A stretch of 46,429 nucleotides of DNA, taken from IMG/VR virus record IMGVR_UViG_3300036889_000007, positions 1-46,429 of that record. One strand, written 5' to 3'. The notes under the pieces are model-generated. The model searched no databases, had not been told where the DNA came from, and was given only the letters and a program-made list of their open reading frames with translations. Positions 1-46,429 of the stretch are shown piece by piece; the stretch's first letter is position 1; every line of letters starts with the position of its first letter. The translations under genes were made by a program, and so were the position numbers. This DNA comes from a virus.

Positions 1-127
1 GCGTAAAGTTTCCAGAATAGGTAGTAGTTCCTTCCATGTCCAGCACGATCGTGTCGCCAGGGGACGAGTTGGTAAGGGCAGTCTGGAAGTCGGTCGCATT
101 GTGCGGTGTCCAAGTCGTGCCTCCCGC
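1..127. repeat. Terminal direct repeat, left copy
   Basis: The 127 bases are identical to 46303-46429. The beta-helix frame reads through the joint when the copies are merged, so this is a circular or terminally redundant molecule of about 46,302 bp. A length of 127 equals a widely used maximal assembler k-mer, so it may reflect assembly overlap rather than a biological terminal repeat. Confidence 0.97.
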
Positions 128-241
128 CGGCGGGTTCCACGTCGTGTCGATGAACAAACTGGGCGGAGTAGGATACGGCATTTGAGCCACGGCAGCGCTA
201 ACTGCCAACATCAGAGCAAAGATTGTGAGTAGTCTTTTCAT
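1..241 (-). CDS. Exported beta-helix protein, N-terminal part (gene crosses the contig joint)
   Basis: This is the 5' part of a gene that starts with ATG at 241, runs down to base 1 and continues at 46302 to its stop at 44750. The merged product is 597 residues. AGGA lies just upstream of the start (GGCAGGAATATG on the minus strand). The first 20 residues form a clear Sec signal peptide: MKR, a hydrophobic core, then AAVAQ with an A-V-A cleavage site. The start is 23 bases after the stop of the upstream spike gene, so the two are co-transcribed. The in-frame ATG at 46348 would remove the signal peptide and is an artefact of cutting the circle. Confidence 0.9.
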   Translation of the reverse strand, partial: MKRLLTIFALMLAVSAAVAQMPYPTPPSLFIDTTWNPPAGGTTWTPHNATDFQTALTNSSPGDTIVLDMEGTTTYSGNFT

Positions 242-264
242 ATTCCTGCCTGTGCTCCAGTTCA

Positions 265-2982
265 TCAGAACCGAGTCGGCTGCGTGTTGCCCTGGTACTG
301 CACGTTGTAGATGATGGTAAAACTCGTAGCCGTCATGCTAGTTGTTGGCGTCACCTGCAAGAGAGTCGGATTGGCCGCAGTCAGTGCCCACGAGTCGGTA
401 AGGGTAGAACCTGACGTGCAGGTCGTCGCTTCGTTTAGCCCTGCCCCGGTTGTCGGACTCACTACGAAAACGCTAGCCGAGTTCTCGCCAGCGAAGTTCA
501 GCGTACCACTCAGAGCACATTGGTTTGTTCCACCGCTGGCTTGGATCGTGTACTCTACCTGACCGCCAGTGGTTTGCAGCGTAGCAAGAGGGATGCTTAG
601 AATCGTGCTCGCAGCCGCGCTAGTAAGGTTCTTCGTTCCCCCGATGATCTGTTTGGTAGTTCCAGCAACTTGAACATTACCACCCGCTGTTGTGTTAGCT
701 GCGGGAGCAGTTGCACCCAGAGATGCGTCGGCAAGCGTGAAGCTGAACGTGGTCGTCGTATTGTTAGAGATGCAGGGGGCAGAAGCACAGCCTAGATAAT
801 AACTGCCCGTGTCTCCAGTCTTGGTGGCGTAGATATTGCGGCCCGTAGTCCCTACTGGCCCAACGGGAATTACACTCAGGGGCACGGTAGCAGCTACACC
901 GCAAGTCTGAACCGCCGACTTTGCGCTTGGGAGTGATTCACCAAAAGCGGTTATGAATGTTACCACCCAACTGTGGGTGCCTGCTGTGCAGCTTCCGCCC
1001 GACGTGGGAGTTCCTGCGGTCAGCGCTGCCGGGGTAGTGTCATTCGCATAGTTCGTCGGGCCGGTAGAGGTTACACCGCCGTACAGGGTATTGGTTGCTA
1101 GCCCCGTGGAGTTGTGGGTTGCGTAGGACGACGTGCCGCCACTGGTTGTGTTCCCTGTCGTCACCTGCTCGTAAAAGCTGGTACTGTATTTAACGTACCC
1201 GCTCTTTGGAACAATCCACAAATCAGGAGAGCCGCCAGTTCCTGACCCAATCGTAGTTATCCCAGGAGACGCTCCAGTATAGTTGCTCTGCAAAGACAAG
1301 CCAGCGTAATTGCTCCCGTAATTGTTGACAATCCCATCGGATGAGGTGAAGATCGTCATCTTCATCGAGTTCGTCCCGTTCTTTAGCTCTAATTCATAAT
1401 CGCTTCCTTGGTACAGGTTGTCATTTCCAATCGCCAACCCTACTGTGTTCGGGAAGAGGTTCCCACCATCAGCCATGATCTGGGTATCAAGGCTCTGGTC
1501 GTAACTTGCGTTGAACGGTGTACAGTAGATGCCAGAACAACCCATGTTGCCGATAATGACGCTCCCCGGAACCGCCGTGCCATCGGTACAGAAGGCATAG
1601 GCCGTACCTAATGCATCCCAAAAACTGTTATTCACAAACGTATTCCATCGGGCGTATGACATGCTGATGCCGCAGCCGCCAGTGTAGCCAGTCAGCTCGA
1701 TTACATTACCCGAAACTTGGTTGCCGGAATCCTCCATTCCGGTTCCGCCGTCAAGTTCAATAGCATTAGCTACTCCCCCGCCGCTCTGGAATGAGATGAT
1801 GTTGTTAAGGAACTGCACGCCGTTTCCGGTGCGCTGCAACTTCATGGCGGTTCTAATCTTCTCGAAGGCGTTGTCACGAATTACTGTTCCATAGCCCTGG
1901 AAGCGATCATTGATAGACCCATTTAACGGCGTCGGTAGATCGTTTGTTCCCCCTAGAATAATGGCATCGTTGCAGGCTGTAGTTGTAATGTGAGTCCCGA
2001 GGAATGTGTTGTTGTGAATCTGCACGTCTGTCAAGGTAGTTTGCAAGAAAGGCTGACAATCGGTGCTGGTATCTTTGAGTGTCAGATGGTCAATTTCTAA
2101 TACACCGCCACCCTCTGAAACCATCTTCGGGCCACTGGCATATTGCAAATCCAATCCGCCCCCACCGATAATAGAGCCATGAGCATCAGTCATGGTGAAG
2201 GTATTAACTTGGCCCGTAATCCTATAAGGAGGGGAACTCCATGGAGTAGTTGCGTTCTTCGGAAAGACTACCTGCCCAGAGATTAGGCAAAATTTTCCGG
2301 GGGGGAACTGGATTGTCCCGCCTCCGTTGGTATAAAGAACACCTAGCAGGGTATTGAATGCGCTGGTGTCGTCCGTCGAATCGTCGCACGCAAAGCCATT
2401 GGCCATCGCGTTGTAGACCGCTCCGCCATTGTCCCATATTGGAGCAGTAATCGGCTCGGCAGTTGAAACCGTTGTACCACTGTCGGTGATAGAAGAAGCT
2501 ACGGCGTTAGTGCCGTCTGACTTCATCACAACGTTAGCTCCAGCAGAGTTGGTGATTCCTCCACCACTCCCACCCCCACCGCCCCCGCTCCTTGCGGAGG
2601 CTGCTGAAGGTGTGATAGTAGCTGTAGCTGAACCAGACATGGTTGCTGAGGCCCGCATACGTAGCCCTGTAAATCCAGCAGCATTGACCTGCCAAGTACC
2701 ATTAGCTGTAGCAGAGGTGACAGCGGTTGTGGAGGCTAAGGGGGTGACGTTTACAGCTACCCAAGTAGCTCCACCATCGCCTGTAGCCTCAAATGAGATG
2801 GTTCCTGTCCATGTACCTGAGAGTGTTAAAGTGGCACCACCCTTATCTTCGGGAAGATTGACTATAAGACAACTAGCTTCTAGTACACAGGTAGTGCCAC
2901 TGGTTGTGATTACGTTACTCGCTGCCCATGAGGGCATGGCCCACAGAGCAATGAATAGCAGTACCGTTGATAGACGTTTCAT
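265..2982 (-). CDS. Exported beta-helix tailspike-like protein (905 aa)
   Basis: The start at 2982 is chosen because a strong GGAGG (in taggagggataATG) precedes it and a Sec signal peptide follows (MKRLSTVLLFIALW, ending P-S-W-A-A). An upstream in-frame ATG at 3009 would bury the signal. After a Thr/Ser-rich region and a polyglycine linker near residue 140, the GFACDDSTDDTSAFN and GGGTIQFPPGKF motifs mark the entry of a pectate-lyase-3-type beta-helix, as in many phage tailspikes. The C-terminal third is beta-rich with paired Cys. It starts 8 bases after the ATP-grasp stop. Base composition is richer in GC than the internal virion genes (52% over 1681-1800 against 40% over 5701-5820). Role: host surface binding or depolymerisation. 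Confidence 0.85.
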   Translation of the reverse strand: MKRLSTVLLFIALWAMPSWAASNVITTSGTTCVLEASCLIVNLPEDKGGATLTLSGTWTGTISFEATGDGGATWVAVNVTPLASTTAVTSATANGTWQVNAAGFTGLRMRASATMSGSATATITPSAASARSGGGGGGSGGGITNSAGANVVMKSDGTNAVASSITDSGTTVSTAEPITAPIWDNGGAVYNAMANGFACDDSTDDTSAFNTLLGVLYTNGGGTIQFPPGKFCLISGQVVFPKNATTPWSSPPYRITGQVNTFTMTDAHGSIIGGGGLDLQYASGPKMVSEGGGVLEIDHLTLKDTSTDCQPFLQTTLTDVQIHNNTFLGTHITTTACNDAIILGGTNDLPTPLNGSINDRFQGYGTVIRDNAFEKIRTAMKLQRTGNGVQFLNNIISFQSGGGVANAIELDGGTGMEDSGNQVSGNVIELTGYTGGCGISMSYARWNTFVNNSFWDALGTAYAFCTDGTAVPGSVIIGNMGCSGIYCTPFNASYDQSLDTQIMADGGNLFPNTVGLAIGNDNLYQGSDYELELKNGTNSMKMTIFTSSDGIVNNYGSNYAGLSLQSNYTGASPGITTIGSGTGGSPDLWIVPKSGYVKYSTSFYEQVTTGNTTSGGTSSYATHNSTGLATNTLYGGVTSTGPTNYANDTTPAALTAGTPTSGGSCTAGTHSWVVTFITAFGESLPSAKSAVQTCGVAATVPLSVIPVGPVGTTGRNIYATKTGDTGSYYLGCASAPCISNNTTTTFSFTLADASLGATAPAANTTAGGNVQVAGTTKQIIGGTKNLTSAAASTILSIPLATLQTTGGQVEYTIQASGGTNQCALSGTLNFAGENSASVFVVSPTTGAGLNEATTCTSGSTLTDSWALTAANPTLLQVTPTTSMTATSFTIIYNVQYQGNTQPTRF

Positions 2983-2990
2983 TATCCCTC

Positions 2991-4244
2991 CTAAAAATCT
3001 ATGCCCCATGATGCCAAGTCCTTTAAGTTCTCTTTAAGATCATCCATGCTACCTGTAGTAACTGTTAGTTGTGTGCCCTTGATTTGCTTACCAATCTCAC
3101 TAACCTCCTCCATACAATCTTCAAGACTCGATCCGTAAGCCACAACAGCACCTACCTCTTCACCAGAGTTCTGTGGAAGTATCCATGTCTCATTACCGAA
3201 CTGTGCAGCGTAGCGTAACTTGACTTGGTTACGATACTCTGCTGGGAACTCTATGAGCATAGGCTTCTCAGGAGACCATTGGCTTTTGATGAGAACTTCA
3301 CAGCCATACTTAGCTTTGTAGATAGGCTCAACAAGCATCCCGTTAGCCCCTTCCCACATAATCTCAGGTAGGTTGGTGATTAGGTCTAGCTCTAGCTCAG
3401 ACACAGGGGAACCAAACCTACAGCATGGATCAGCTAGCCAGAGACCACCCTTACCTACCCTAGACTCCAGAGCAAACAAGTTACGATACTGATAGCTCTC
3501 TAATGTAGGTGATAGCTTCTCATAGATGTCAACTAGGGTTGGGGGCATAGCAGCCCAAGGCTTGACTGCACCCACATAGCCCATATCTTTCTGCTCCACA
3601 CCTAGCATAGCCATTGCTGGATACTTACCATCTATACTATAAGTATCTATAGCAATATCTAACGTGTCTGGTAAGTTATCTTCCACTACAAAATCACGTT
3701 GTTCAGCTATGGGGCCAAACTCAGCCTCCATAAAGTCTAGCCGATTCTTAGCTAGGTCATAACCTTCAACTGAGAATGTCTCAGTGTCTCCACGAGTCTT
3801 ATCAATCTTAATCCAGAGCTTAGTGTTGCCACGGCTCTTGATGTACTTCCTGAGTGCTGACATTCCTGTAACAACTACATAGGGAGCTTGCGGTATACTC
3901 AGCCCAGCAAAGTGCTCCTTAGCATCAGTACGGTAGCACTCTAGCTCATCCGCATTACGCGACCCAAATACCCTTTTACCCTTCGACGCCAGATATTCTT
4001 GCAACGTCCCTTGATGAAGATCAGTAAACACAAACAGGTCAACATCATCTATAATGTCCCATATATCATCTACACGTTCAAAGTCAGGGAAGCCCTCACC
4101 TAGCTCAGTCTTGTAGGATGAAGGGAAGTCAGCTACCCAAGGGGAGGTATAGTAGACCTTACCAAATCGTTTGCTGAGTGATCGCGCTACCTCAGCAAAG
4201 ATGCCGTTATCTACTACGCAGACCGTATTGGTGGTAAAGTCCAT
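2991..4244 (-). CDS. ATP-grasp family protein, PurD-like (417 aa)
   Basis: The fold pattern is that of ATP-grasp ligases: an N-terminal Rossmann-like pre-domain (VCVVDNGIFAEVARSLSKRF, GKVYYTSPW), a hinge, then the ATP-grasp core with WIKIDKTRGDTETF for the nucleotide lid and acidic metal ligands further on. Resemblance is closest to phosphoribosylamine-glycine ligase, but purine synthesis is not implied because no other pathway gene is present. These enzymes join a carboxylate to an amine using ATP. The start at 4244 overlaps the upstream stop as TAATG, giving translational coupling to the HELAE-motif gene. The position between ejection proteins and spikes in the late operon suggests modification of a virion or envelope component. 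Substrate unknown. Confidence 0.75.
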   Translation of the reverse strand: MDFTTNTVCVVDNGIFAEVARSLSKRFGKVYYTSPWVADFPSSYKTELGEGFPDFERVDDIWDIIDDVDLFVFTDLHQGTLQEYLASKGKRVFGSRNADELECYRTDAKEHFAGLSIPQAPYVVVTGMSALRKYIKSRGNTKLWIKIDKTRGDTETFSVEGYDLAKNRLDFMEAEFGPIAEQRDFVVEDNLPDTLDIAIDTYSIDGKYPAMAMLGVEQKDMGYVGAVKPWAAMPPTLVDIYEKLSPTLESYQYRNLFALESRVGKGGLWLADPCCRFGSPVSELELDLITNLPEIMWEGANGMLVEPIYKAKYGCEVLIKSQWSPEKPMLIEFPAEYRNQVKLRYAAQFGNETWILPQNSGEEVGAVVAYGSSLEDCMEEVSEIGKQIKGTQLTVTTGSMDDLKENLKDLASWGIDF

Positions 4245-4618
4245 TATAAGTTCTCCACAGTAGCATCGTACTGTTTCCAATCTACATCTAACTCAAGTGC
4301 AAGTAATCGCTCAACACAAGTAGAGAACTGATGCTCACGATAGTAGGGGGCTGCTAGACTATCCCCAGGCTCACTAACATCATTATCCCCTCTAAGAGAT
4401 TCATACTTAATATCAAAGTCATCTACCTGTTCTTGCTGTATCCCTCGGTGTCTACATATAAGACATTCAGCTAATTCGTGAAACGCAACTAGCATCTCAT
4501 ATCGCCAGTCACCCATCTTTGATACTGAGATGGTCAAGTTATCTCCATCCCATTGCCAATCTCCACACGTAGAATAACGTTGCTGGTTGTTAGGTATGAC
4601 CTCAATCGTTACTTTCAT
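4244..4618 (-). CDS. Conserved phage protein with HELAE motif, possible metalloenzyme (124 aa)
   Basis: The central helix reads VAFHELAECLICRHRGI. The HExxE arrangement resembles metal-binding helices of zinc proteases, and similar helices followed by D-F-D occur in hypothetical proteins of many tailed phages. No second metal ligand can be assigned with certainty and no peptidase family is recognised. It overlaps the end of the large internal virion gene by four bases (ATGA) and its stop overlaps the ATP-grasp start, so the three are one translational unit. It could act with the ATP-grasp protein. It is also one of few candidates for a cell-wall-active enzyme, but this is only a guess. Confidence 0.6.
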   Translation of the reverse strand: MKVTIEVIPNNQQRYSTCGDWQWDGDNLTISVSKMGDWRYEMLVAFHELAECLICRHRGIQQEQVDDFDIKYESLRGDNDVSEPGDSLAAPYYREHQFSTCVERLLALELDVDWKQYDATVENL

Positions 4619-7600
4619 TGACCCCTCTTTATACTAAACTTACCACGACTAGACTTAGCCCCCGGCAAGGATGCTTGCTTACCCTGCTTTGCCCCCTCAT
4701 GGTATACTGCTGCACCTACAAGTCCAGCAAGGAAGTCTTTGTAGGTTAAGCCCTCATCAGGATTCATAAGGCGCTGTGACATATCCTTTATGACAAAAGG
4801 TGCAGGCAATAGCTGTTCCCCAGCAAATGCTAATCCCTTCTCGCTCTTTTCACCAAAGCTATCAGTACGCTTTATAATTGGCCTACCCTGCCAGTCTGTT
4901 TTCTCAGTTAGCTTAACTCCAGTTCCAACAAGTGGTGAGGCTTTGTTAAGGGCAAACTCTACTGTGCCTATAGGGAAGCCATCACGCATTGTGCTATTGA
5001 TCGTACCTATAGCATCCTTGGGTGCACCAACAAAGAACATGCTAGAGTACATCTCTTTACCCTTATCGTCCTTGCCAAGATAAACCTTATCCCACTGCTT
5101 TGACATCTGGCCTGTGAGTAGGAGACTCATGCCCTGTGTCATAGCATAGCCAGTAGTGAATGACTTTAGCCAGAACATACGTGCTGCATTACCACCAGGG
5201 CCACCCTCAAAAGCATACTTCAGGTTTGCTACGTTACTGAATGTCCAGTCAGGGGCAAGTAAGAACATACGCCCAACAGCTTGAAAGTTTTTACTGACTC
5301 CTAATACATCCCAGTTAAGTCCTCCATACACGGCGTTGGCTTCCTTAGCAATAGAGCGCATAGCAGTACCATATTCAGAGTCAGTTGTGTTTGGGTTCTT
5401 GGCAAGCCAAGCTGCCTTTCGTGTCATATACCCAATTACTTTGAACTTACGTTGGGCTACATCAAAGGTAGCTTTAGTCATACCCTTGAAGATTGCATCC
5501 ACTGGTGCGTAGCCTTCCTTGACCTTTGCTAACAAAGTATTGCGTGGCTCTAAGCTAGAAGGCTTTGGGCCTTGGTATGCCTCATAAGGTACGCTAGTTT
5601 TAGTTGTTGTTAAACCCCACAGAGCACCATCCCTCTCACCTTCCTCAAACTCAGGGGAGTTATTACCAGTATATAGAGCTTTCCTATAAGCGTCTACTCC
5701 TTCATTATTCATAAACGAGAGCGACAAAGCACGCATGTGGAATGGAGATAAGCCAAGCTCAATAGACTTGATATATGCTTGGGTCATCTTAGCAACCTTC
5801 CAAAATTTAGCCCCAGATATAACATCATTCTCAAGAATCGGACGCATGGCTTCGGCAATCTTAGGTGGCACCTGAAGCCCCATACGGAATTGCTTATCTC
5901 CACTAACAACTGTTTTACCTGTACCCGGAAGCTCTACCCAATCCCTAGGTATACCACCAAACTCTTCTAGCTCCTTCTGGCTGAGAATATCTTTATATGC
6001 TTTTAGCTCAGCCGGAACCTGACCTGCTACTCCATGTTTACCAAGCTCAGAGTTCTTTAACTCCATTTCAAGCACGTTGCGACCTACAGAGGTTCCAAGC
6101 CTATCACCATAGATACGTAGCTCATCAACTGCGTTGAAGGTACGAGCTTCAGTCTCACCAGACTTCAGGGGGTCTAGTAAACGTAGGTACTCACGACGGA
6201 TGTCATGTGGTGAGCGTTTAGAGAACTTCGATCTACCTACACTACTTTCCTCATCCTCAGCGTGCATAAAGTTACGTGGGCTATATCGAGCTGGATCAAT
6301 GCTGCTGTCAACACCTACGAACTGACGACGTAGATCATTAGCTTGCTTAAAGTATTCGGTCATCTGCTTATCAGCTTCAAGCATCTTAGGTGTAGGCTCT
6401 AATGCACGTTCCATTGAGGGTATAGCACGCTTTAACTTCTCGTTGTCACCCTTACGTATCTCCTCAATCTCAGAACGTAACTCATTAGGATCGTCACGAT
6501 AGTCACGCATGAAGCTGAGTGCTTCCTGATCTATGTAGTCAGGTATTAGCTTTGCTATGTGCCCTGCAACCTGTTCTGCTTGAGCGTGTACCATGTTCCG
6601 TGGGCCAGTGAATAGAGTACGGATTACAGACTTACCATAGCCTTCACTCTTGTTACCAGCCTTGATGTCATTCAATGATTCTCGGTTCTTAGCAAGGAAC
6701 TGGGTAAGCTCTTGTGATACTCCAGTAAGCTGTGACTCACCTTCTAGAGTGGTACGATCAGATACACGCTTATGGGCATTCATGTAATCTTCACTATGGA
6801 ACTCTCTATCCTCGTCACCACCCTGTTTCCACATCTCATGCACATCAGGTTCATTCTCTTTGACCCAGTTCTTTGCTTGGGAGCGATTGAGGTAGTCACC
6901 ACTGGGAGTAGTAAAGCCTCTACCAGACTTGAGTGACTCCTTTGGGGGTAGTGGATCATCTTCAGGAGCCTGTAGTTCAGCAATACCACTAGGCCCACGT
7001 AGGGTGTAAGCACGATCAATAACCTGCTGTACTTGAATCTCAGGTTGAGATAGTACCTTATCAGCTAGCTTAGGATTAGCCTCAAGCTCATCAATACCAA
7101 TAGGACGCTCACCAGTCACACGTTCTGCTAGGTCTGAGTGAGTTGCATCCTCTCCACTGATAACCTGCTTGCTACCATCCTTAGCTGTTACTCGAATAGC
7201 AGGTTGTAGTCCTGGCTTCATCTCAGGCTTAACTGGGGGCTGCGCTTGTAGCTTCTCAGCAGACTGTTCAGGGGTAGTGCCGTCCTTGGTGTATACATCC
7301 ATCAAGCCCTGTTTAGCTTCAGGTGCACCAATACTACCTGCTAGTCCTGCTGCTGAGACTAGGACAGCATTACGCTCAAATCCCTCTAAGGTAGGCATAC
7401 GCTGATTCAATACAGAACCAGCTACTTCCATAGCTGTAGACTGGTATAAGCCTTTGAGTAATGTAGCTGCTGCTGGACTCTGAGCAAGGAACTTACCTAC
7501 TGGTATATCGCCAGCCAGTATCATTGCTTCTCCACTAGCAGCACCCTTAGCAGCATCCCATAGTGCACTACCAGCACGACTTGCTAGATCACCAGGACTC

Positions 7601-8238
7601 TTTATGTCACCCTTCTGGTAATGATCCATGAGAGTCTTTCGTAGGCCAGCACTAAGGGCAAACCCACCTAGTGTACCTAGCTTAGCAAAGCCAGCGAGCT
7701 TACCTAGGCCCATAGGAAGGAAGAACGATGGATCAGTATAGATACTAGATACATCATGGATGAAGTTTAATAGTGCATCATGTGACTCAAAGGGCTCTGG
7801 TGGCTTACCTCTTATAGCCATTGCTAGAGGTGTTTCCTCTAAGCCAGACTTAGCTGCCTTACCAACCTGTGCATCATAGTCACTAGCAATATCCCGGAAG
7901 CCTTTGTCAAACTCTTGGTAATGGTCATAGGCAAGTTTAGGATCAGCACCAGTCATCTTGGAGTGGATGAGTGCCTTGAGTAGCCTGCCGGACTCCATCG
8001 GCCCGCTGAAAAGCTCGTGCCCTACCATGCTTGTGAGTTCCCCGGCTACGCTTGCAGGTTCCCACGATCCTCCAGCCCCACCAGAAGAGGGCGCTGCGTT
8101 CGCTGTGGGCGAGGCTGGCGCTGGGGATGACCCAACAGGGTTCCCAGACGCATCCCACTCGTGTGTGGGCGCTGTACCAGCCTGCACGGGATTCCCCTGC
8201 TCGTCCCACTCACGCGGCGTTATTGCTGTAGTTGCCAT
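4615..8238 (-). CDS. Large internal virion protein, T7 gp16-like ejection protein (1207 aa)
   Basis: Identified mainly by size and position: the third and largest of the internal virion proteins after a gp14-like and a gp15-like gene, as in T7-type podoviruses. In that family such proteins leave the capsid first and form a DNA conduit through the envelope. The N-terminus carries two copies of an EWDxxGNPV motif (about residues 10-18 and 27-35) in a Pro/Ala-rich segment. Glycine-rich hydrophobic stretches near residues 180-300 could insert into membranes. I see no lytic transglycosylase domain, unlike T7 gp16. It overlaps the upstream gene by 19 bases. The first 200 coding bases are visibly GC-richer than the rest. 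Confidence 0.75.
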   Translation of the reverse strand: MATTAITPREWDEQGNPVQAGTAPTHEWDASGNPVGSSPAPASPTANAAPSSGGAGGSWEPASVAGELTSMVGHELFSGPMESGRLLKALIHSKMTGADPKLAYDHYQEFDKGFRDIASDYDAQVGKAAKSGLEETPLAMAIRGKPPEPFESHDALLNFIHDVSSIYTDPSFFLPMGLGKLAGFAKLGTLGGFALSAGLRKTLMDHYQKGDIKSPGDLASRAGSALWDAAKGAASGEAMILAGDIPVGKFLAQSPAAATLLKGLYQSTAMEVAGSVLNQRMPTLEGFERNAVLVSAAGLAGSIGAPEAKQGLMDVYTKDGTTPEQSAEKLQAQPPVKPEMKPGLQPAIRVTAKDGSKQVISGEDATHSDLAERVTGERPIGIDELEANPKLADKVLSQPEIQVQQVIDRAYTLRGPSGIAELQAPEDDPLPPKESLKSGRGFTTPSGDYLNRSQAKNWVKENEPDVHEMWKQGGDEDREFHSEDYMNAHKRVSDRTTLEGESQLTGVSQELTQFLAKNRESLNDIKAGNKSEGYGKSVIRTLFTGPRNMVHAQAEQVAGHIAKLIPDYIDQEALSFMRDYRDDPNELRSEIEEIRKGDNEKLKRAIPSMERALEPTPKMLEADKQMTEYFKQANDLRRQFVGVDSSIDPARYSPRNFMHAEDEESSVGRSKFSKRSPHDIRREYLRLLDPLKSGETEARTFNAVDELRIYGDRLGTSVGRNVLEMELKNSELGKHGVAGQVPAELKAYKDILSQKELEEFGGIPRDWVELPGTGKTVVSGDKQFRMGLQVPPKIAEAMRPILENDVISGAKFWKVAKMTQAYIKSIELGLSPFHMRALSLSFMNNEGVDAYRKALYTGNNSPEFEEGERDGALWGLTTTKTSVPYEAYQGPKPSSLEPRNTLLAKVKEGYAPVDAIFKGMTKATFDVAQRKFKVIGYMTRKAAWLAKNPNTTDSEYGTAMRSIAKEANAVYGGLNWDVLGVSKNFQAVGRMFLLAPDWTFSNVANLKYAFEGGPGGNAARMFWLKSFTTGYAMTQGMSLLLTGQMSKQWDKVYLGKDDKGKEMYSSMFFVGAPKDAIGTINSTMRDGFPIGTVEFALNKASPLVGTGVKLTEKTDWQGRPIIKRTDSFGEKSEKGLAFAGEQLLPAPFVIKDMSQRLMNPDEGLTYKDFLAGLVGAAVYHEGAKQGKQASLPGAKSSRGKFSIKRGQ

Positions 8239-9998
8239 GTCTTAGTCTTTGGATTCCACTCTGCGTTATCTGGTACACTCTTGGGTCTTGATGGAGCTGA
8301 TTGAGATTTAGTAACAGGAGCACTCGTTGCTGCTGGTGTAGGTACTGCTGGCCCATGCACCAAACCATACAATAAATCCTTAACGTAGTTTGATGAAGCT
8401 GCCTTACCAGTCTGATCTGCCATATCCTGTGCCTCTTTCAGAATGGCAGACCCATGTAAGTTCTTCTCCTTAATAGTCTTGAGTAATGAGTCACGAGCAT
8501 CAGCAGCTTTACGATTGTTCTCAGTCGTCAAGGGCATGGCTTTGTATACAGATGAAATGATACCTATACCTTCTTGAATCTCTGGATATTGGTCACTGTC
8601 CTTATACATATGCCATAACTTAGCACCATCTGCTTCAGTCATCTGACCCTTGGATATAGGCGTAAGGATGTCACTGTTATAATCAATCACGTCACCCTTA
8701 GCCATGCGATCAGACAACCTTAATGACGTTGCAATACTCTTATCCTCAAGCTCCCGCATTCTCTGTTGACGTTCAGCCAAACCAAGACTACGCTCCTCAT
8801 TACGCATTACACGAGCTTGACGTTGCTCTTGAAACAGAGCTGTCTTTAACTGATTGACAGCTTTGGAGCTAGCCTTATCAGTCTGTGGCAACGCTTCAAT
8901 CTGAGCAATGGTAAGAGGATGCTTTGGATCATATATCATAGGTGAGTATTTCTCTAGCACATCCTCATCCTTATCCCGCTGCACCTTCTGATGCATCTGC
9001 CACTGCCTTGCATCATCCTCTTGTAGCTTCTCAGCCATCACATAGTTAGGCTTACCATTAGGAGTAACGATACCATGCGACTTTAGCCAGTCACCATCCT
9101 GTAATGCTTTCTCACGAGCTTCATAGTCTGGGGTGTTATCTGGGTGCTTAAACTCTGGAGAGCTGAATGCCTCAGCCTTGACATTGAGTGCACCATTAAG
9201 ACTCCCAGCTTCCTCCTTCTCAGTAAGGGAATGGTTAGTATCAACAGCATGAGTATATAGTTGACTCAGCTCCCCACTACTAAGTTCGGAGTGTTCCAAG
9301 TTACCACCACCGCTACTTAGCTGTTTTATAACATCATCTCTAACACCCTGTGATGGACTGTTGATTTTGGTAAGGATTGAACCCTTCTGAATATCCTTGC
9401 TCAACTGCATCTTGAGAGCTTCAGCCTCTTGTGGGTATAGGATACCACTTTGAACAAATCCCTGAAGCTGCAAGTCAAACTGTTTATTCTCTGTTGATGA
9501 GTTACCCCCGGCTGCTATGGTATTGATAGCAGCTTGTACATGCTTCTTACCTAATATCTCTAGTGCAGCCGTACCACTATCCCTTATGATAACTGCCTTC
9601 CTAGCATTTACAGTGTTCTGAAGCTCAACATCCTCACGCTGAAGATGGATAGAAAGTTCCTTTGATAACTCACGGTCATGCTCATAAGGAGCTATGGCAT
9701 TCTGCAACTCTCCCCTACCATGATCTAAAATTGCTTGAGCCTCTTCTGGAGTCCTTGCTTTGTTAAGATCAGCATGTACTTGGCTCTTTACTTTATCTAA
9801 GGCAATCTCTGCTTGAGCAGCCTTTAGCTGACGTTGAGCATAGATCAGGTGCCCTTCAAATGCCATATTAGCCTGGGCCATCTGTTCAGTCTCTTGGCCC
9901 AGACCTGCAATGGTCTCCCCCACAGAACCAAACTGACCAGGACTAGCCTTTGGCTCTGCTACTGGTTCATCAATCGGTAATGAAGGTATCTGTGCCAT
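8220..9998 (-). CDS. Internal virion protein, T7 gp15-like (592 aa)
   Basis: A long, mostly helical, charged protein with little Cys, as expected for the middle ejection protein of T7-like virions. Residues about 30-130 and 380-440 look like coiled coils (Glu/Lys/Gln-rich, e.g. RNEERSLGLAERQQRMRELE). It starts with an ATG that overlaps the upstream stop (TAATG) and ends 19 bases inside the gp16-like gene. The C-terminus is a Pro/Ser/Thr-rich tail. Assignment rests on order, size and composition, not on a specific motif. Confidence 0.7.
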   Translation of the reverse strand: MAQIPSLPIDEPVAEPKASPGQFGSVGETIAGLGQETEQMAQANMAFEGHLIYAQRQLKAAQAEIALDKVKSQVHADLNKARTPEEAQAILDHGRGELQNAIAPYEHDRELSKELSIHLQREDVELQNTVNARKAVIIRDSGTAALEILGKKHVQAAINTIAAGGNSSTENKQFDLQLQGFVQSGILYPQEAEALKMQLSKDIQKGSILTKINSPSQGVRDDVIKQLSSGGGNLEHSELSSGELSQLYTHAVDTNHSLTEKEEAGSLNGALNVKAEAFSSPEFKHPDNTPDYEAREKALQDGDWLKSHGIVTPNGKPNYVMAEKLQEDDARQWQMHQKVQRDKDEDVLEKYSPMIYDPKHPLTIAQIEALPQTDKASSKAVNQLKTALFQEQRQARVMRNEERSLGLAERQQRMRELEDKSIATSLRLSDRMAKGDVIDYNSDILTPISKGQMTEADGAKLWHMYKDSDQYPEIQEGIGIISSVYKAMPLTTENNRKAADARDSLLKTIKEKNLHGSAILKEAQDMADQTGKAASSNYVKDLLYGLVHGPAVPTPAATSAPVTKSQSAPSRPKSVPDNAEWNPKTKTWQLQQ

Positions 9999-10522
9999 TA
10001 TGGAGCAAACACCGTTCCCATCCCGCCCATACCAGAGGACGCATTAAACGTACTATCAATACCACTACTACCACCACCAGTGTATCCAGTTGCACTGAGG
10101 TATCCTTGAACACTCTTACTCATGCCACTAAGGAACGTACCAATCCCAGCCACCTGACCTTTCCATGCAGCAACCTTACCGTAGTATTCCTCAAGTGTCG
10201 AGGCTTCTGTACCAGACTGATATATCTCCTCTGCCTGTCTCCCACCACGTCCTGCTGTAGCTGCCATCATAAGTAGTGGAGAGCCTCTAGTAATGTCAAC
10301 ACCTGATGCAGCATAAGCTGTAGCCTGCTTACCAACCAAGGCTGAATACTTCTGCTCATTAGCAACCATGTCATTAGACATGTTGTTAAGATCAACTTGA
10401 GCATTGTAGTCATAGCCTGCTTGCTGTTGCTTACCAGCATCAGCTTCACCCATACCAGAGACTAAGGAGCTTATAATCCCCAGTCCCGAGAGCGCACCAG
10501 ATTGAGTAGTCGGATCACTCAT
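9998..10522 (-). CDS. Internal virion protein, T7 gp14-like (174 aa)
   Basis: Starts with a small Gly/Ser/Ala-rich hydrophobic segment (GLGIISSLVSGMG), then a helical region with AYAASGVDITRGSP, a pattern common in the small gp14-like ejection proteins of podoviruses (SGVxxxxGSPL). It is directly downstream of the tail tubular protein B gene, the usual place of this protein. The Gly/Ser-rich C-terminus has no assigned function. In the family the protein forms a channel in the outer membrane during DNA entry. Confidence 0.75.
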   Translation of the reverse strand: MSDPTTQSGALSGLGIISSLVSGMGEADAGKQQQAGYDYNAQVDLNNMSNDMVANEQKYSALVGKQATAYAASGVDITRGSPLLMMAATAGRGGRQAEEIYQSGTEASTLEEYYGKVAAWKGQVAGIGTFLSGMSKSVQGYLSATGYTGGGSSGIDSTFNASSGMGGMGTVFAP

Positions 10523-10528
10523 ATTATC

Positions 10529-26918: not shown

Positions 26919-27326
26919 ATGTCAGATGAAAGTGCTGTAATGGAACCGGAAGCTAAGACCAAGGCGCGTAAAGCTTACGCACCCCTCACCAATGAGCAAA
27001 AGGAAGCGGCAACTCTTCGACGGGATGCGACGCTGCTTGCAAAATACGGTAATGCGACCAAGGCTGCGGAGCTTGTAGCCCAGGCGGACAAGATTGCCCC
27101 GGAGCGCAGCAATCAGGCAAAGCGGGTTGATCCTCTGATTGAACTGAATGCCCAGGAGCAAGGATTCCTGCGAACGTCCTACTTTGAGACCACCAAGAAA
27201 GGCTTTGCCCACATCTGTGCTCTGGTCAGCTATAAGAAGCTGGCAGAGATTGTGGAGAGTCACCCAAAGCAAGCTCTGGTCAGCTATAAGAAGCTGGCAG
27301 AGATTGTGGAAGGCGCACAGAAGTAA
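26919..27326 (+). CDS. Early helical protein with recent C-terminal duplication (135 aa)
   Basis: Start at 26919 after AAAAGGAG; a longer frame from 26856 is rejected because it would begin within the promoter. The protein is charged and helical (EAKTKARKAYAPLTNEQKEAATLRRDATLLAKYG), followed by a compact region with GFLRTSYFETTKKG. The last 36 residues contain two copies of ALVSYKKLAEIVE, 18 residues apart, encoded by identical 38-base segments. It has its own promoter and is followed by a strong hairpin, so it is a single-gene transcription unit, likely highly expressed. Function unknown. Confidence 0.75.
   Translation: MSDESAVMEPEAKTKARKAYAPLTNEQKEAATLRRDATLLAKYGNATKAAELVAQADKIAPERSNQAKRVDPLIELNAQEQGFLRTSYFETTKKGFAHICALVSYKKLAEIVESHPKQALVSYKKLAEIVEGAQK
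27219..27310 (+). repeat. Tandem duplication, 38-bp identical copies (54-bp period)
   Basis: Bases 27219-27256 and 27273-27310 are identical and begin GCTCTGGTCAGCTATAAG. The period is 54 bases, so the reading frame is kept and 18 residues are duplicated. Absence of any silent change points to a recent event. Confidence 0.9.
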
Positions 27327-27334
27327 CCTCCCTG

Positions 27335-27375
27335 TAACAAGCCTTCAGAGTCAACCAACTCTGAGGGCTTTGTTA
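27335..27375. terminator. Strong hairpin, bidirectional terminator candidate
   Basis: GCCTTCAGAGT (27341-27351) pairs with ACTCTGAGGGC (27358-27368) around a six-base loop, with one G-T pair. An outer TAACAA/TTGTTA pair of six bases extends it across one bulged T. It lies nine bases after the stop of the plus-strand gene and inside the end of a minus-strand small gene, so it separates converging transcripts. The T tract on either side is imperfect. Confidence 0.7.
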
Positions 27376-27515: not shown

Positions 27516-27595
27516 TGGGTTAGCTCTTTCATCTACCGAAAATTCCGTTAATCAGTGTTCTCAAAATATGCAAAATTCCGATAAGTCCTTTGTTT

Positions 27596-40510: not shown

Positions 40511-40843
40511 TTAACGGACAGCCCCTGGCAGGGTTGCTGGGGGCTGTTGCTGTATGAGCTTAATTACTATAGGCGTAGCAACTACAGCGAACTGTCCTAA
40601 CGTCCTAACAACCACCATAGTCCTTTGACGTTTAGTAAGTGGTGGAGGATTGGCTATCAACTCAGCAAGCCGATTCTGCTCTGCTAATAGAATGTTATGC
40701 TCCGCGAGTGTGACCTGCAACCGATCCATCGAAGCAGCAAGGCAAGCGATGTCACAGGCAGGCAAGGGTGGGGTTAGGGTTAAGGTTGCCTCTTGAGCCA
40801 ATGCCATAGCCGTGAGCAAAACGACTGCGATAAGTATTCTCAT
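40511..40843 (-). CDS. Exported coiled-coil protein, last late gene (110 aa)
   Basis: A Sec signal peptide (MRILIAVVLLTAMALAQ, cleavage after A-L-A) leads a mature protein with a Cys pair (PACDIACLAASM) and a helix with heptads (LQVTLAEHNILLAEQNRLAEL). A second hydrophobic stretch (VRTLGQFAVVATPIVIKLI) follows, then a Pro-rich end. It abuts the start of the preceding gene. Length and topology could fit a spanin subunit or an envelope protein; no lipobox is present. Confidence 0.65.
   Translation of the reverse strand: MRILIAVVLLTAMALAQEATLTLTPPLPACDIACLAASMDRLQVTLAEHNILLAEQNRLAELIANPPPLTKRQRTMVVVRTLGQFAVVATPIVIKLIQQQPPATLPGAVR
40518..40547. terminator. Hairpin at the convergent end of both arms
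   Basis: ACAGCCCC (40518-40525) pairs with GGGGCTGT (40540-40547) across a 14-base loop. It lies 10 bases after the stop of the last plus-strand gene and within the last codons of the last minus-strand gene. A U tract is lacking on either strand, so termination may be imperfect. Confidence 0.45.
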
Positions 40844-41209
40844 TTACCTACCTCTAGGCCAAAGAGTATATGTCAAAGCAACCCCACTGCCAACAGATGC
40901 AATCCTAGGTATCACCAACGCTAGCTTAGGATGTCCATGCTTAGAAAGCAACACAGATGCCCCCAGCTCTACCACCTTACCCCCCATTACCCATGCTGTA
41001 ATACCAGCACAGGTCTGTGTAGGAGCAGTCCGCTCAACCCAATGTGAATGCTCACAGGAGTTTACTGAGTCCGCTATACCAGTAGCAAAGTTTACTGACT
41101 GCCACGTAACCTGCTGGCGTGTCCAGAACTCCTGAGACAACGCCAGAGGAGACATCAATACGATAACCACAACCAGCTTACTTACCTTGGCACATATACG
41201 TGATTGCAT
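40844..41209 (-). CDS. Exported small protein with Cys pair (121 aa)
   Basis: The ATG at 41209 is preferred to an in-frame GTG at 41221 because GGGAG precedes it by six bases. A signal peptide with a basic start (MQSRICAKVSKLVVVIVLMSPLALSQ) is followed by WQSVNFATGIADSVNSCEHSHW and TCAGITAWVMGG, suggesting a disulphide, and two weakly hydrophobic helices near the end. It overlaps the fibre gene by 32 bases. Resembles small exported or membrane proteins with a DxxxS ... C pattern, but no family can be named. Confidence 0.6.
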   Translation of the reverse strand: MQSRICAKVSKLVVVIVLMSPLALSQEFWTRQQVTWQSVNFATGIADSVNSCEHSHWVERTAPTQTCAGITAWVMGGKVVELGASVLLSKHGHPKLALVIPRIASVGSGVALTYTLWPRGR

Positions 41210-44200
41210 AGGTACTCCCACTTGTTAGTCCGATTCCATTATTGTCCCAGTTAAGGGTGATAGCATTCAGTGCCCGACCAGTTATGATCGCTGTAGCCCT
41301 ACTCTGCCAAACACCAGTAGTATCATAGGCTAAAGTAAAGACACATACAGGAAGATTAGTACCTAGATTTGCAGATAACTGTAAAGTTTCATCACCTAGA
41401 TTACCAATCCCTGAACCACCAGGAGTTAGAACCATTACCCCCCACAGGTCTGTACTACCAGTCTCAAGCATACATGTTCCGGTAGACCCAATTCCCCCAC
41501 CACCACCAGTAGGTATACAGGTTGTATTACCTGTCTGGCTATACTTCATTGGGGTAGTGTTAGAAGTTATGTTCAAAGCTGCTGTAGAGTAAACTCCTCC
41601 CAAATCCATACCATACTTGGCTGTTCTATTCTGAGAGCGGAAGTCTGCCTCGGTTACTGTATGGATAGGATCACCCTGGCTATAAGGAACAAAGAAACCT
41701 ACTCTAAATGAGTTCCCCGCAAATGGATTTACCAGATAAGCAGAATCGCACATTGAGGGGCTACCACCATTACCACAGTCAGCTAGGAAAGCTGTAGAGA
41801 TTTGACTGGTAGAATAAAAGGTAGTAGGAGCATCTGTTCCTGTGAAGTTAAATACACCAGACTCAACACCAGTTAGTATTACAAACGGTATCCCAACTCC
41901 TGTTGTACCTACAGCAGCCTCAACTCCAAATGCAGCTCCTGCTGTAGCTGCTATACCAGCATGATTCAAGAATGCATATCCATCAATACCTTCAATGAAG
42001 CACGATCCTCCTCCTGCACCGCAACCACCATCATCTGCTATCTGGGTAAAGAGTCCAGTCATAATAGAGTTAGGATCACTGCTTTCCTTCCTCGATGTAA
42101 AGACGTGGCCCCAGTTGTGGCCAGCATAATTGCTAACCTTCTGCCAAAGATTGGCTGCACCTGCTGCTGTGTTTGGACTAACAAGCCCACCTTGAAGAGA
42201 GAGAGCCTGAGCATTACCAGTCCCTCCTGTATAGTTAGCATTAACTGGGGTAGCATACACGCCACCTCCAACAGTCTCTGACCCAGTTGCTATTATAGAT
42301 ACTACGTTTATATTCTTGGGATTGTCAAGCACCCAGAAAAGACTCGCTCCTATATTTCCAAGTTCTACGGTTGCAGTCTCATTGAGTACAATGTCACCAG
42401 CAGCAACAGGTATTAACCCTATTGGGCCTTGCTTTTTGGCAGTCAGAGGTGTAAGGCCACTGACTGTTATTGTAGGTGTAGTGGTTACATTGCTAGCACC
42501 AGGAATAAAGCTCACCTTTGTACCAATCTGGGTTTGTGATACCAGTGCTGGAACAAGCGTAATCGTGATTGCATCTGCTGTCCCACCAACACTAGAAGCA
42601 ACTGTTGGCTTTGCTATTGCAGCAGCATCTAGATTGCTTGCTCCTACAGCACCACAATTCCCAAAGCTAATTGCCCCTATTGCCGATCCAGATATAGCAG
42701 CTATAGCCGCTTGACCAAGACAGCCTGGGGTATTCGGTGAAGAACCAAGATCAGTAACATCACCAGCTATGGTGGTACTTGCTCCAACATAGTGATTGAG
42801 TGTTATCCCACTAGCGTCTGCTGTCACTATTGGATAGCCAAGTGTAACTAGGCAAGCGTTACCTGTCGTGCCTGGAGCACACCCAGCAACTGTATTTGTA
42901 GGGGCTTCAGCATAAAGCTGGATCGTGGTATCACTAGTGGTAGCAGTAAGTGCTTGACCACCAACTATCTTGGTTAGCTTATATACTGTAGTGCCACTAC
43001 TGGCATTAGGAATTGAGGGGTCTATTATTTGAGTAGGCCCAGAAGCTGTAAAGCTGCTAGCTCCTATGTGACCACTCATATCAGTTGTGCAGTTAGTGTC
43101 AACCTTACTATCTCCTCCTGCATTACCAAACATGCACGTATTCAAATTCAATGCTCCAGCACTATGCGTAACAGTTCCCGTCCCAGGAAAGCTGCTACAA
43201 GATGGTTGTGGTACTGGCTGCACACGAACTAACGTAACACTTCCGGCTAGGCCAGAAGCTACAGCCTGACCAATTACTTCATTGCCACACAGAGGGATTA
43301 TATTTGATCCTGTGTCTGTACCATAACCACTAATAGATGAGGTTGTTACCCAGTCACCAGCCACAACCGCATGAGTTGCATCAAACTGTAGATAGGTTAC
43401 ATTTCCTGTAAGTGCCACTTGTGGAAAGTTAGGATAGCTACAACTGTTTACACAAATCCCAACTACATCACCAGCGTCGTTGGCAGCGCAAGCCGTAATC
43501 TTTTGTGTAGTTGTTTGACACGCCGTATATGTTGCTACCGGAGGGGTGGTTGAGTCACTTGGGTATTGAGTCTCCCAAAAAACATTAGCCTCATTCAATC
43601 CCCACGTAGCACCAGAGGTAAGCTGTGCTGGCTCAACTATAGCACTACCTGCTAACTTAGCAAGCATTGTAGTGTTTGTTCCTGACAGTAGTGCGTTCCA
43701 TCCTGTACTACCAGAGCTTGTGCTACAGGTTCCATCGCTGTAGAGATAACCAGTACAACCTCCACCAGCCCATAAACCTACAACATTGCCATAGGACATA
43801 GTTAGGAAGTTAAAAGGGATTGTATTAGATGCATTATAGCTCGTTCCCCAGGCTGTACCACTGCTGTTTGCTATGCCCGTTGCAGGATAGATCATGCTGC
43901 TAGGACATGGCCCTACATCTTTGAGCAGCTTACCAGTTATGCCATCGTACACAGCACAGTCACCATCGTTAGACGTGCTGGGGCCAGTGACATTCCCACT
44001 ACCATTACCGCTCCCAGTCTCTTGCAGTATCTCTGTTAGCTTATCCAAGCTCCGCTCAAAGGTTTTCATTGGGATGGGCATGTTGTCATAGAACGATATG
44101 TTCTGTGTCACTGGTGTAACACGAGTCAACACAAGTGTCTGAGTACATGGATACAGGCTGCCTAACGTAACACTACCACCATTGGCATAGTTCATGTTGA

Positions 44201-44408
44201 CTGAGATAACCGTATAAGCAGTGGGTGGTAGCAACGTGCCATTCAACGTAACTGTCAGTGCAGTAGGGTCACTGATAGGAAAGCTAAAAGGAAATGGCCC
44301 ATACCCACCTGTGCAAGCAAAGGTAACTGTGTATGGTAGATTGCTAACAGTAGCACATGCTGTGCCAGTTAAGCACAACAACAATATCCACAACATGATT
44401 CGCTTCAT
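41178..44408 (-). CDS. Exported tail fibre with T7 gp17-like N-terminal anchor (1076 aa)
   Basis: The first 20 residues form a Sec signal (MKR, then IMLWILLLCLTGTA, A-C-A cleavage site). Residues about 23-115 match the layout of the T7 gp17 virion-binding domain: YTVTF, FPFSFPISDPTALTVTLNGT, YTVISV, GSVTLGSLYP, TLVLTRVTPVTQNISFYD and MKTFERSLDKLTEILQE. The rest is Gly/Ser/Thr-rich beta structure with many Cys. The start overlaps the upstream stop (ATGA). It should be the receptor-binding fibre, yet the signal peptide predicts export before assembly, which is hard to reconcile with cytoplasmic tail attachment. Confidence 0.85.
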   Translation of the reverse strand: MKRIMLWILLLCLTGTACATVSNLPYTVTFACTGGYGPFPFSFPISDPTALTVTLNGTLLPPTAYTVISVNMNYANGGSVTLGSLYPCTQTLVLTRVTPVTQNISFYDNMPIPMKTFERSLDKLTEILQETGSGNGSGNVTGPSTSNDGDCAVYDGITGKLLKDVGPCPSSMIYPATGIANSSGTAWGTSYNASNTIPFNFLTMSYGNVVGLWAGGGCTGYLYSDGTCSTSSGSTGWNALLSGTNTTMLAKLAGSAIVEPAQLTSGATWGLNEANVFWETQYPSDSTTPPVATYTACQTTTQKITACAANDAGDVVGICVNSCSYPNFPQVALTGNVTYLQFDATHAVVAGDWVTTSSISGYGTDTGSNIIPLCGNEVIGQAVASGLAGSVTLVRVQPVPQPSCSSFPGTGTVTHSAGALNLNTCMFGNAGGDSKVDTNCTTDMSGHIGASSFTASGPTQIIDPSIPNASSGTTVYKLTKIVGGQALTATTSDTTIQLYAEAPTNTVAGCAPGTTGNACLVTLGYPIVTADASGITLNHYVGASTTIAGDVTDLGSSPNTPGCLGQAAIAAISGSAIGAISFGNCGAVGASNLDAAAIAKPTVASSVGGTADAITITLVPALVSQTQIGTKVSFIPGASNVTTTPTITVSGLTPLTAKKQGPIGLIPVAAGDIVLNETATVELGNIGASLFWVLDNPKNINVVSIIATGSETVGGGVYATPVNANYTGGTGNAQALSLQGGLVSPNTAAGAANLWQKVSNYAGHNWGHVFTSRKESSDPNSIMTGLFTQIADDGGCGAGGGSCFIEGIDGYAFLNHAGIAATAGAAFGVEAAVGTTGVGIPFVILTGVESGVFNFTGTDAPTTFYSTSQISTAFLADCGNGGSPSMCDSAYLVNPFAGNSFRVGFFVPYSQGDPIHTVTEADFRSQNRTAKYGMDLGGVYSTAALNITSNTTPMKYSQTGNTTCIPTGGGGGIGSTGTCMLETGSTDLWGVMVLTPGGSGIGNLGDETLQLSANLGTNLPVCVFTLAYDTTGVWQSRATAIITGRALNAITLNWDNNGIGLTSGSTYAITYMCQGK

Positions 44409-44710
44409 ACCTTTGGTTCCTCTCGATCACTAGCCTTAGCTGCGGCAATCTGGGTTTTCAAGTCTGTCACCTGTGCTAACTGCTCTGCTTCACTATCTTT
44501 CCTTGTAATCGTATCTTGTAGATGGGTAATGATTCCATCTGTTTGTGATCTAGTTATCTTAGTTGTTGCATCAACACCCTCTAGCTTTACAGACAGATGC
44601 TCAAGTTTATTAAGCGTCAACTTTAAGAACGCAATGATGACTGCTACTAGAGGTAGCATTACCATTCCAACATAAGGGGCAACGAACTCCCAAAACGAAG
44701 TTGTTGTCAT
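44405..44710 (-). CDS. Membrane-anchored coiled-coil protein, spanin-like candidate (101 aa)
   Basis: One transmembrane helix (YVGMVMLPLVAVIIAFLKL) near the N-terminus is followed by a long charged helix (LNKLEHLSVKLEGVDATTKIT ... AEQLAQVTDLKTQIAAAKA). This resembles inner-membrane spanins of the Rz type or a small virion-envelope protein. The start at 44710 is preferred because it overlaps the stop of a 10-codon minicistron with a strong ribosome site. A start at 44716 would lack one. Confidence 0.6.
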   Translation of the reverse strand: MTTTSFWEFVAPYVGMVMLPLVAVIIAFLKLTLNKLEHLSVKLEGVDATTKITRSQTDGIITHLQDTITRKDSEAEQLAQVTDLKTQIAAAKASDREEPKV

Positions 44711-44739
44711 TCGCATTCACCCAATCTACGTTCAGCCAT
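44707..44739 (-). CDS. 10-residue minicistron coupled to the membrane protein gene
   Basis: AGGAGGAATAAG precedes ATG at 44739; the peptide is MAERRLGECE, and its TGA overlaps the downstream ATG as ATGA. It supplies the only strong ribosome binding site for the next gene. The upstream spike stop TAG overlaps the AGGAGG. Probably a translational coupling device. Confidence 0.5.
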   Translation of the reverse strand: MAERRLGECE

Positions 44740-44749
44740 CTTATTCCTC

Positions 44750-46429
44750 CTATTGTACCTGAAAACCACTAAATGTATATCCGCTCATTGTCAGACTCCC
44801 CACAAACGAGCTGGGCGTGCCCCCGTTCCACCCCGCCTGCACTCCATCCGACGTGTAAGCCGACCAGTTGGGCGTTACCAACACATTATTAGAATCGAAC
44901 GTCCAAGCTGTTGGCACGTCGTTCTGCGGGGGCCATGAATATATCGTGTCGCCGCTAGGTGCAAACATCACGTTCCCGAGAAAGCGGGGTGCCAGTGGCG
45001 ACGGGTTAGGCATGTAGATATTAAGCCCGGTAAGGCCTGTCATACCACATTGGCCACTGACCTGCCGACCAATTACGTTATCAAGAATCCAGATGTTGCC
45101 GCCCGTGTTTGGTATAGAGGAACATCCCGGGGCTGTCCAATCATAGTTGTCTGGATTAGAGCCATCCAGCATCAGGCCGGTGTTGTGCTGAACGATCCAG
45201 TCGGTCAGCCCATTTAGAACCATGGGGCTGAGTTCCCCACCCCATATCAGCATCATTACGTGGTGCGTGTCATCCGGATTTGGGTTAAGCAAGAAGAGAT
45301 TATTGTGTATCCAGACCCGCTTCGATTCTCCGGGCGTAGTACAGTTGGGGTAGCCAGAGGCCGGGTTACAAGCGTAATCCTCGGCTAGAGTGTTGAAGCC
45401 GCGATCACCGTGCTTGATGATATTTCCAGTTACCTCGATGTCATCCACTACGGCGAGGTTCCCGCTTTGGGTAGTACGAATCTCGAACAGAAGCTGGGCA
45501 TATTGTCCAGAGGAGCCTAGCCAGTTATTCTCTAGCGTGTTGCCGGTAACGATGACCCGCCTCGCGCTCTTGAACTCCAAATTGTTCTTCTCCAGCCACT
45601 TGTAACCGGGAGAAGTCGTTGGAGGACACGGCACTCCATTAGGTTGTATGTAGCCAGGAGCCAGCGTAATAAGGCAGGCGTCCCATGCCAAAGGCTTGAA
45701 CATGTGATTATTGCGAATCTCAATGTCCGAAGCTACATAGGGATTGGTGTACCCACCAGAACCGCCGAACATCAAATCTTCGGTGGATGCTGACAGATAG
45801 TTATCAACAACCTTAATCGGCCCAGGAGTCCAGAACGATGCTATAGCTTGAGAGTCGCTGTTGCTTTGATGGATGTCGGAGATGTAACTGTCGATCACGG
45901 CGCAGTTGGTTATGTTGCACTGCACGCCTTCCCGCACGTCCTGGGTATCAGAGCCGTGTATGTAATCGCGGTCTACGGTGATCGAATCCGGCAGGCAGCC
46001 CGAGGTAAAACAACTCTCGCCTCCGTCCTCCTGTCCAATCAGAAAATAGGTATAAGGGTTCATTGGAGGATTTTGGGATGGGTTACCTCCCTGCGTAGAC
46101 GTGCTGGTAACCTCCAATCCAACTAGCCGCCAATGGTTTGATCCCTGTGCGGGCGCAATAGCGGGAAGACTGTTGGGACTAACCACCTTCGCCATGTAGG
46201 GTGCATAAGACGGATCAGTGCGCGTCCCCGGAGGCGGCAAGGAAGCCAACCCTGCACTCTCAATGTAAATCCAAAGGTTGCCCAGATTGGTCTTCGCTGG
46301 CAGCGTAAAGTTTCCAGAATAGGTAGTAGTTCCTTCCATGTCCAGCACGATCGTGTCGCCAGGGGACGAGTTGGTAAGGGCAGTCTGGAAGTCGGTCGCA
46401 TTGTGCGGTGTCCAAGTCGTGCCTCCCGC
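44750..46429 (-). CDS. Exported right-handed beta-helix protein, spike or depolymerase candidate (C-terminal part)
   Basis: Main part of the 597-residue protein that begins at 241 on the other side of the joint. Short N-rich rungs recur with a spacing typical of right-handed parallel beta-helices of the pectate-lyase-like type, for example IEIRNNHMF, VIVTGNTLENN, IEVTGNIIKHG and VWIHNNLFL. Such folds are used by phage tailspikes that cleave surface polysaccharide and by secreted bacterial lyases. Many Cys residues (e.g. CFTSGC, CNITNC, CNPASGYPNC) would suit disulphides in an oxidising compartment. It lies between the other spike and a membrane-anchored coiled-coil protein. No virion-anchoring domain is recognisable, so it may be a second spike or a truly secreted enzyme. 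Confidence 0.85.
   Translation of the reverse strand, partial: AGGTTWTPHNATDFQTALTNSSPGDTIVLDMEGTTTYSGNFTLPAKTNLGNLWIYIESAGLASLPPPGTRTDPSYAPYMAKVVSPNSLPAIAPAQGSNHWRLVGLEVTSTSTQGGNPSQNPPMNPYTYFLIGQEDGGESCFTSGCLPDSITVDRDYIHGSDTQDVREGVQCNITNCAVIDSYISDIHQSNSDSQAIASFWTPGPIKVVDNYLSASTEDLMFGGSGGYTNPYVASDIEIRNNHMFKPLAWDACLITLAPGYIQPNGVPCPPTTSPGYKWLEKNNLEFKSARRVIVTGNTLENNWLGSSGQYAQLLFEIRTTQSGNLAVVDDIEVTGNIIKHGDRGFNTLAEDYACNPASGYPNCTTPGESKRVWIHNNLFLLNPNPDDTHHVMMLIWGGELSPMVLNGLTDWIVQHNTGLMLDGSNPDNYDWTAPGCSSIPNTGGNIWILDNVIGRQVSGQCGMTGLTGLNIYMPNPSPLAPRFLGNVMFAPSGDTIYSWPPQNDVPTAWTFDSNNVLVTPNWSAYTSDGVQAGWNGGTPSSFVGSLTMSGYTFSGFQVQ
46303..46429. repeat. Terminal direct repeat, right copy
   Basis: Exact copy of bases 1-127. 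Both copies lie inside the coding sequence of the exported beta-helix protein, so the contig was opened inside a gene and not at a natural intergenic end. Confidence 0.97.

Follow-up and report, generated by a model that had tools for sequence, protein, structure and literature searches.

Why would a podovirus encode tail fibres that begin with a secretion signal, when fibres are taught to be attached in the cytoplasm? The question is raised by a viral DNA stretch of 46,429 nucleotides (IMG/VR record IMGVR_UViG_3300036889_000007; the whole stretch is hereafter 'the window'), which is the genome of a T7-like podovirus from a group of uncultured soil phages, and in which N-terminal Sec-type signal peptides had been noticed on five late proteins: two putative spikes (A and B), a tail fibre (D) and two small proteins. 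We consider it reasonably probable, though well short of certain, that these appendages are exported through the Sec system, fold oxidatively in the periplasm and dock on virions at lysis. Export with disulphide formation is strongly supported by comparative inference from the sequences, while late attachment is likely, because the virion anchor is retained and exported fibres would have to meet cytoplasmic particles.

All five proteins (905, 597, 1076, 121 and 110 residues) are present at the predicted lengths, and each starts with a strong Sec-type signal. By a score of our own, built from rules for the n-, h- and c-regions and calibrated on 76 E. coli K-12 proteins, they reach values of 40-50 (those of the spikes, 43 and 50, being read from slightly longer alternative starts), while every other called gene of the window stays at or below 23. 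In the calibration, known exported proteins all scored at least 37 and soluble cytoplasmic proteins all below 25; several inner-membrane proteins scored high as well, and 6 of 700 spurious open reading frames (ORFs) reached 40. The features recognised by the Sec system and signal peptidase I (basic n-region, hydrophobic core, small residues at -3 and -1) are present. Two details of the original prediction needed correction: the AxA cleavage site attributed to each protein is found, as A-x-A or S-x-A, in four of the five (SWA/A, AVA/Q, ACA/T and ALA/Q; slash, predicted cut), the 121-residue protein having ALS/Q, and the ribosome sites are good for the 905- and 110-residue proteins and moderate for the other three, with an ambiguous start for the 121-residue protein.

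The T7-type anchor that had been assigned to fibre D proved sound: residues 20-133 match phrog_1640 (E=1e-9), and the anchor profile also matches the virion-attached spike Dpo31/Dpo36 of phage Carin-1 in the PDB (E=1.8e-4), whose N-terminal domain has been located at the virion base by cryo-electron microscopy (PMC13317679). An AlphaFold model of the anchor (predicted local distance difference test, pLDDT, 76) has Carin-1 (8ck1) and T7 gp17 (7boz) among its top Foldseek matches, at modest TM values of ~0.5. Fibre D shares with T7 gp17-type fibres and Dpo31/Dpo36 (7boz, 8ck1, 28lx) the N-terminal virion anchor fold and its place in a T7-like late gene order; the difference lies at the very start, since the chains of T7 gp17 and Dpo31/Dpo36 begin at the anchor with no signal peptide, whereas in fibre D a signal peptide precedes it. 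The predicted cut (ACA/TVS) falls exactly at the anchor start, a position that in Dpo31/36 directly follows the initiator methionine. The fibre D anchor further holds a cysteine pair that the anchors of isolate phages lack, and in the model the strands next to Cys14 and Cys70 (A4 numbering), 5-13 and 73-81, are at least compatible with pairing.

We explored how far this architecture is conserved using relatives recognised by their portal protein (65 in IMG/VR, at 58-100% identity), in the longer of which the fibre regions were examined. Nineteen distinct anchor fibres, the window included, carry a signal peptide whose predicted cut lies at or beside anchor residue 1, with the same anchor cysteine pair in every one of them; the sequence of the signal segment varies freely, and its charge, hydrophobicity and cut site are kept. 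Between relatives, fibre D and spike A are homologous over the signal peptide and the N-terminal 130-230 residues only, and the distal parts are unrelated (for spike A, the N-terminal 176 residues alone match L069:11281-12345, E=1e-51, so that a signal peptide and an N-terminal domain common to one relative precede an unrelated distal part). A conserved N-terminal end with swapped distal parts is as would be expected of receptor-binding proteins whose virion-binding end is fixed.

The original prediction had looked for evidence against export in homologues that start downstream of the signal, and such homologues do occur in two close relatives (L107 and L112, the latter being the L081 record), but their anchor proteins (358 and 357 residues) are wholly free of cysteine, and a separate distal fibre that starts with a signal peptide is encoded by the next, overlapping gene (L081:6721-10080, 1119 residues with 20 cysteines; the L107 counterpart, from 7053, is incomplete). 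Because the signal-less anchors are cysteine-free and the signal sits on their separate distal fibre, these homologues support export. A distant phage (L231) has the same split design, with a 161-residue anchor devoid of signal and cysteine followed by two signal-bearing genes, and the anchors of seven isolate phages and of several distant contigs have neither signal nor cysteine pair.

A comparable association was found in a second fibre family, one that includes a cultured phage. In BcepC6B, the tail fibre gp19 carries a signal peptide and adjoins the signal-less anchor fibre gp18; a gp19 relative is present in Xanthomonas phage PBR31 (orf35). As in the window, these are signal-bearing fibre genes that follow a tail fibre or spike gene; they differ in being unrelated in sequence to the window fibres and in encoding a separate downstream protein. 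The C-terminal domain of gp19, in which its cysteine pair sits, was recovered from 76 IMG/VR loci, leaving 17 signal-bearing and 39 signal-less members after removal of duplicates. Cysteine pairs at linked alignment columns (83/168, 85/170, 85/103) occur in 8 of the 17 signal-bearing members vs none of the 39 signal-less ones (p=1.7e-5), and one further signal-bearing member has a pair at 87/172; such two-residue steps on both sides would be expected of neighbouring strands joined by a disulphide. The pattern may extend beyond podoviruses, because some gp19-like genes (L148, L172) lie among apparent contractile-tail baseplate genes, as judged from neighbouring sequences. BcepIL02 fibres have no signal, and therefore not every Burkholderia podovirus has one. 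No discussion of the gp19/orf35 signal was found in the accessible records or papers.

Further signal-bearing genes were seen around this second family: fibre-like ones next to gp19-like fibres (L147:5476-7161, L148:8505-8999), and in PBR31 (L126, record 26930-27577) the SGNH esterase gp40, which the phage's authors report to resemble tail-associated hydrolases and to have an N-terminal signal peptide (PMC10975493).

Cysteine parity points in the same direction. Of the complete proteins with a signal and four or more cysteines, 29 have an even count and 3 an odd one (one antisense ORF left out); in the same genomes, signal-less proteins gave 72 even and 55 odd counts (two-sided binomial p=2.6e-6, Fisher p=3e-4, values that are indicative, the sequences being related). 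The five mature window proteins hold 16, 10, 26, 2 and 2 cysteines, and three other window proteins, encoded at 4615-10522 and including one match to an internal virion protein family, hold none.

We propose that the fibres and spikes would be true Sec substrates that cross the inner membrane after synthesis and lose their first 16-25 residues to signal peptidase I, the mature chains then folding in the oxidising periplasm with internal disulphides in anchor and distal parts. Tailed capsids would meanwhile be built in the cytoplasm, as in T7; the opening of the cell by holin and endolysin would then let these particles mix with the periplasmic fibres and the anchor dock on the tail, making lysis the final assembly step. 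In the split relatives the cysteine-free anchor would be made in the cytoplasm, and only the cysteine-rich distal fibre would be exported and then added. Export, periplasmic disulphides and attachment at lysis had all been suggested in the original prediction. What has been gained for it is a clade-conserved signal, a cut that coincides with anchor residue 1 and cysteine pairs that track the signal in two families; this evidence bears on export and folding, exported fibres would probably reach virions, and the small proteins and spike B may act otherwise.

Several points weigh against this proposal. In the usual view of tailed-phage assembly, fibres are attached in the cytoplasm. The relatives share descent and are not phylogenetically independent, only two close anchor relatives lack the signal, and three signal-bearing proteins have odd cysteine counts. 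The signal-peptide score alone cannot separate a cleaved signal from a membrane anchor, and in relatives with the split design the exported distal fibres may do their work off the virion.

This last point leads to the main rival, in which the proteins are exported and disulphide-bonded and serve outside the virion, as secreted polysaccharide-degrading enzymes or as receptor-masking or superinfection-blocking proteins, periplasmic or extracellular. Signals and cysteine pairing indicate export only, for spike B we found neither relatives nor an attachment domain, and exported phage proteins encoded in the tail region are known: lambda Lom (PMC12309495) resembles the window proteins in both respects, although it is an outer-membrane beta-barrel and no fibre. 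We nevertheless regard this reading as rather unlikely, given that fibre D retains a complete virion anchor directly after the cut site, that anchors are conserved while distal parts are swapped, and that split relatives keep a signal-less anchor protein beside the exported distal fibre. Both spikes and both small proteins may act in secreted form outside the virion, and the 121- and 110-residue proteins may be lysis proteins.

A second alternative keeps the N-terminal segment uncleaved, holding the fibres in the inner membrane with the remainder outside, to be lost later or used for docking. That inner-membrane anchors are also picked by our score speaks for it; however, nearly all signal-bearing anchor fibres have alanine at -1, most have proline or glycine before the cut, the hydrophobic core is short, and the cut equals the residue after methionine in signal-less anchors (M/TVPT in Dpo31/36; M/SVVT or M/TVIA in L112 and L107), all of which makes it improbable. 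Slightly less credible still is that nothing is exported and that the hydrophobic N-terminus serves virion assembly or trimerisation in fibres folding in the cytoplasm, as those of model phages do; the segment is free to vary in sequence and yet keeps its charge, hydrophobicity and cut site, it goes together with paired and even-numbered cysteines in two unrelated fibre families, and the distal genes of split relatives have a signal without an anchor. Least credible of all is a two-isoform scheme, in which the first start would give the exported protein and an internal start at the anchor a cytoplasmic one for the virion. Some relatives do encode Val 3 of the anchor by GTG, which can act as a start codon; this holds, however, for a minority of the fibres examined and never with a proper ribosome site, the window has GTT, and no conserved internal start with a ribosome site supports the model.

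A Sec-exported route for fibres is not described for tailed phages in the literature searched, in which we came across no tailed-phage fibre reported to have a signal peptide (subscription journals lay mostly outside this search). Known phage users of the Sec system include spanins and SAR endolysins, of which some have disulphides; these are lysis proteins, not virion parts. By architecture alone, fibre D can be likened to the Bdellovibrio MAT proteins (PMC10769870), surface-displayed cellular adhesins in which a signal peptide precedes a conserved beta-rich domain of ~130 residues; these are the predator's own cellular proteins, neither phage-encoded nor virion-attached. A modest effect of dsbA on Klebsiella phages was explained by its authors via receptors (PMC13412088) and is not used as evidence here.

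Returning to export followed by docking at lysis, virion assembly would, if this is true, end at lysis, fibres could draw on disulphides for stability in soil, host Sec and Dsb enzymes would be needed for them to function, and the fibres released by one cell could dress the virions of another. The annotation and expression of receptor-binding proteins would also be affected, many of them needing periplasmic expression. Whether several tailed-phage lineages use such a two-compartment assembly joined at lysis, with signal and cysteine pairs gained and lost together and the split design as a bridge, we judge to be evenly balanced; BcepC6B, a cultured phage with the same pattern, makes the idea testable.

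Table 1. Signal-bearing late proteins of the window and associated features (slash, predicted cut; Cys, cysteine)
Feature	Position	Strand	Remarks
Spike A, 905 aa	265..2982	-	16 Cys in mature protein
Signal peptide of spike A, MKRLSTVLLFIALWAMPSWA/A	2923..2982	-	AGGAGG upstream
Spike B, 597 aa	1..241 + 44750..46302, across contig ends	-	10 Cys in mature protein
Signal peptide of spike B, MKRLLTIFALMLAVSAAVA/Q	185..241	-	
103-aa protein	44405..44716	-	membrane segment at the N-terminus and a coiled coil; lies between spike B and fibre D
Fibre D, 1076 aa	41178..44408	-	26 Cys in mature protein
Signal peptide of fibre D, MKRIMLWILLLCLTGTACA/TVS	44352..44408	-	cut is first anchor residue
T7-gp17-type virion anchor domain of fibre D	44019..44351	-	Cys pair at full-length residues 32 and 88
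121-aa protein	40844..41209	-	signal peptide ALS/Q; 2 Cys; start 41209 or 41221
110-aa protein	40511..40843	-	signal peptide ALA/Q; 2 Cys; hydrophobic segment near C-terminus

The beta-helix label given to the two spikes could not be confirmed, as neither has a Pfam, PHROG or PDB match, and an AlphaFold model of spike B alone was unusable (pLDDT 33) and was discarded. No relatives were found for spike B and the 121-residue protein, and no relative among isolate phages for the spike A protein; the 110-residue protein had no significant match, although the product of L070:15376-15867 begins with a similar motif. The 103-residue protein is weakly spanin-like (phrog_89, E=0.04).

The ends of the window overlap by exactly 127 bp (1-127 = 46303-46429), giving a circular assembly of 46,302 bp; the genome is probably circular or circularly permuted, with the terminal repeat as an overlap left by assembly. 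PHROG profiles recognised T7-like late proteins (tail tube proteins, connector/head-tail adaptor, major head protein, internal virion protein), with only a weak match for the terminase. Bases 1-12000 have no close DNA relatives among isolate phages, a search of bacterial genomes with the anchor and portal alignments for a host gave no match, and the window contains no tRNAs.

Directly before the fibre genes, and adjoining them in most relatives too, lies a gene for a 429-residue protein (2991-4280) with no signal peptide and no Pfam or PHROG family match. In many relatives the fibre is accompanied by a signal-bearing protein of ~180 residues that starts with VGTCTVTDVTSTQ (L070:11282-11824, L082, L085, L088, L104, L107 and others); this family is absent from the window, has C-terminal extensions in some members and weakly matches Methanosarcina virus MetMV. 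At 37110-40256, matches to phrog_17 and phrog_11023 mark a family A-type DNA polymerase split by an intein that contains a LAGLIDADG homing endonuclease.
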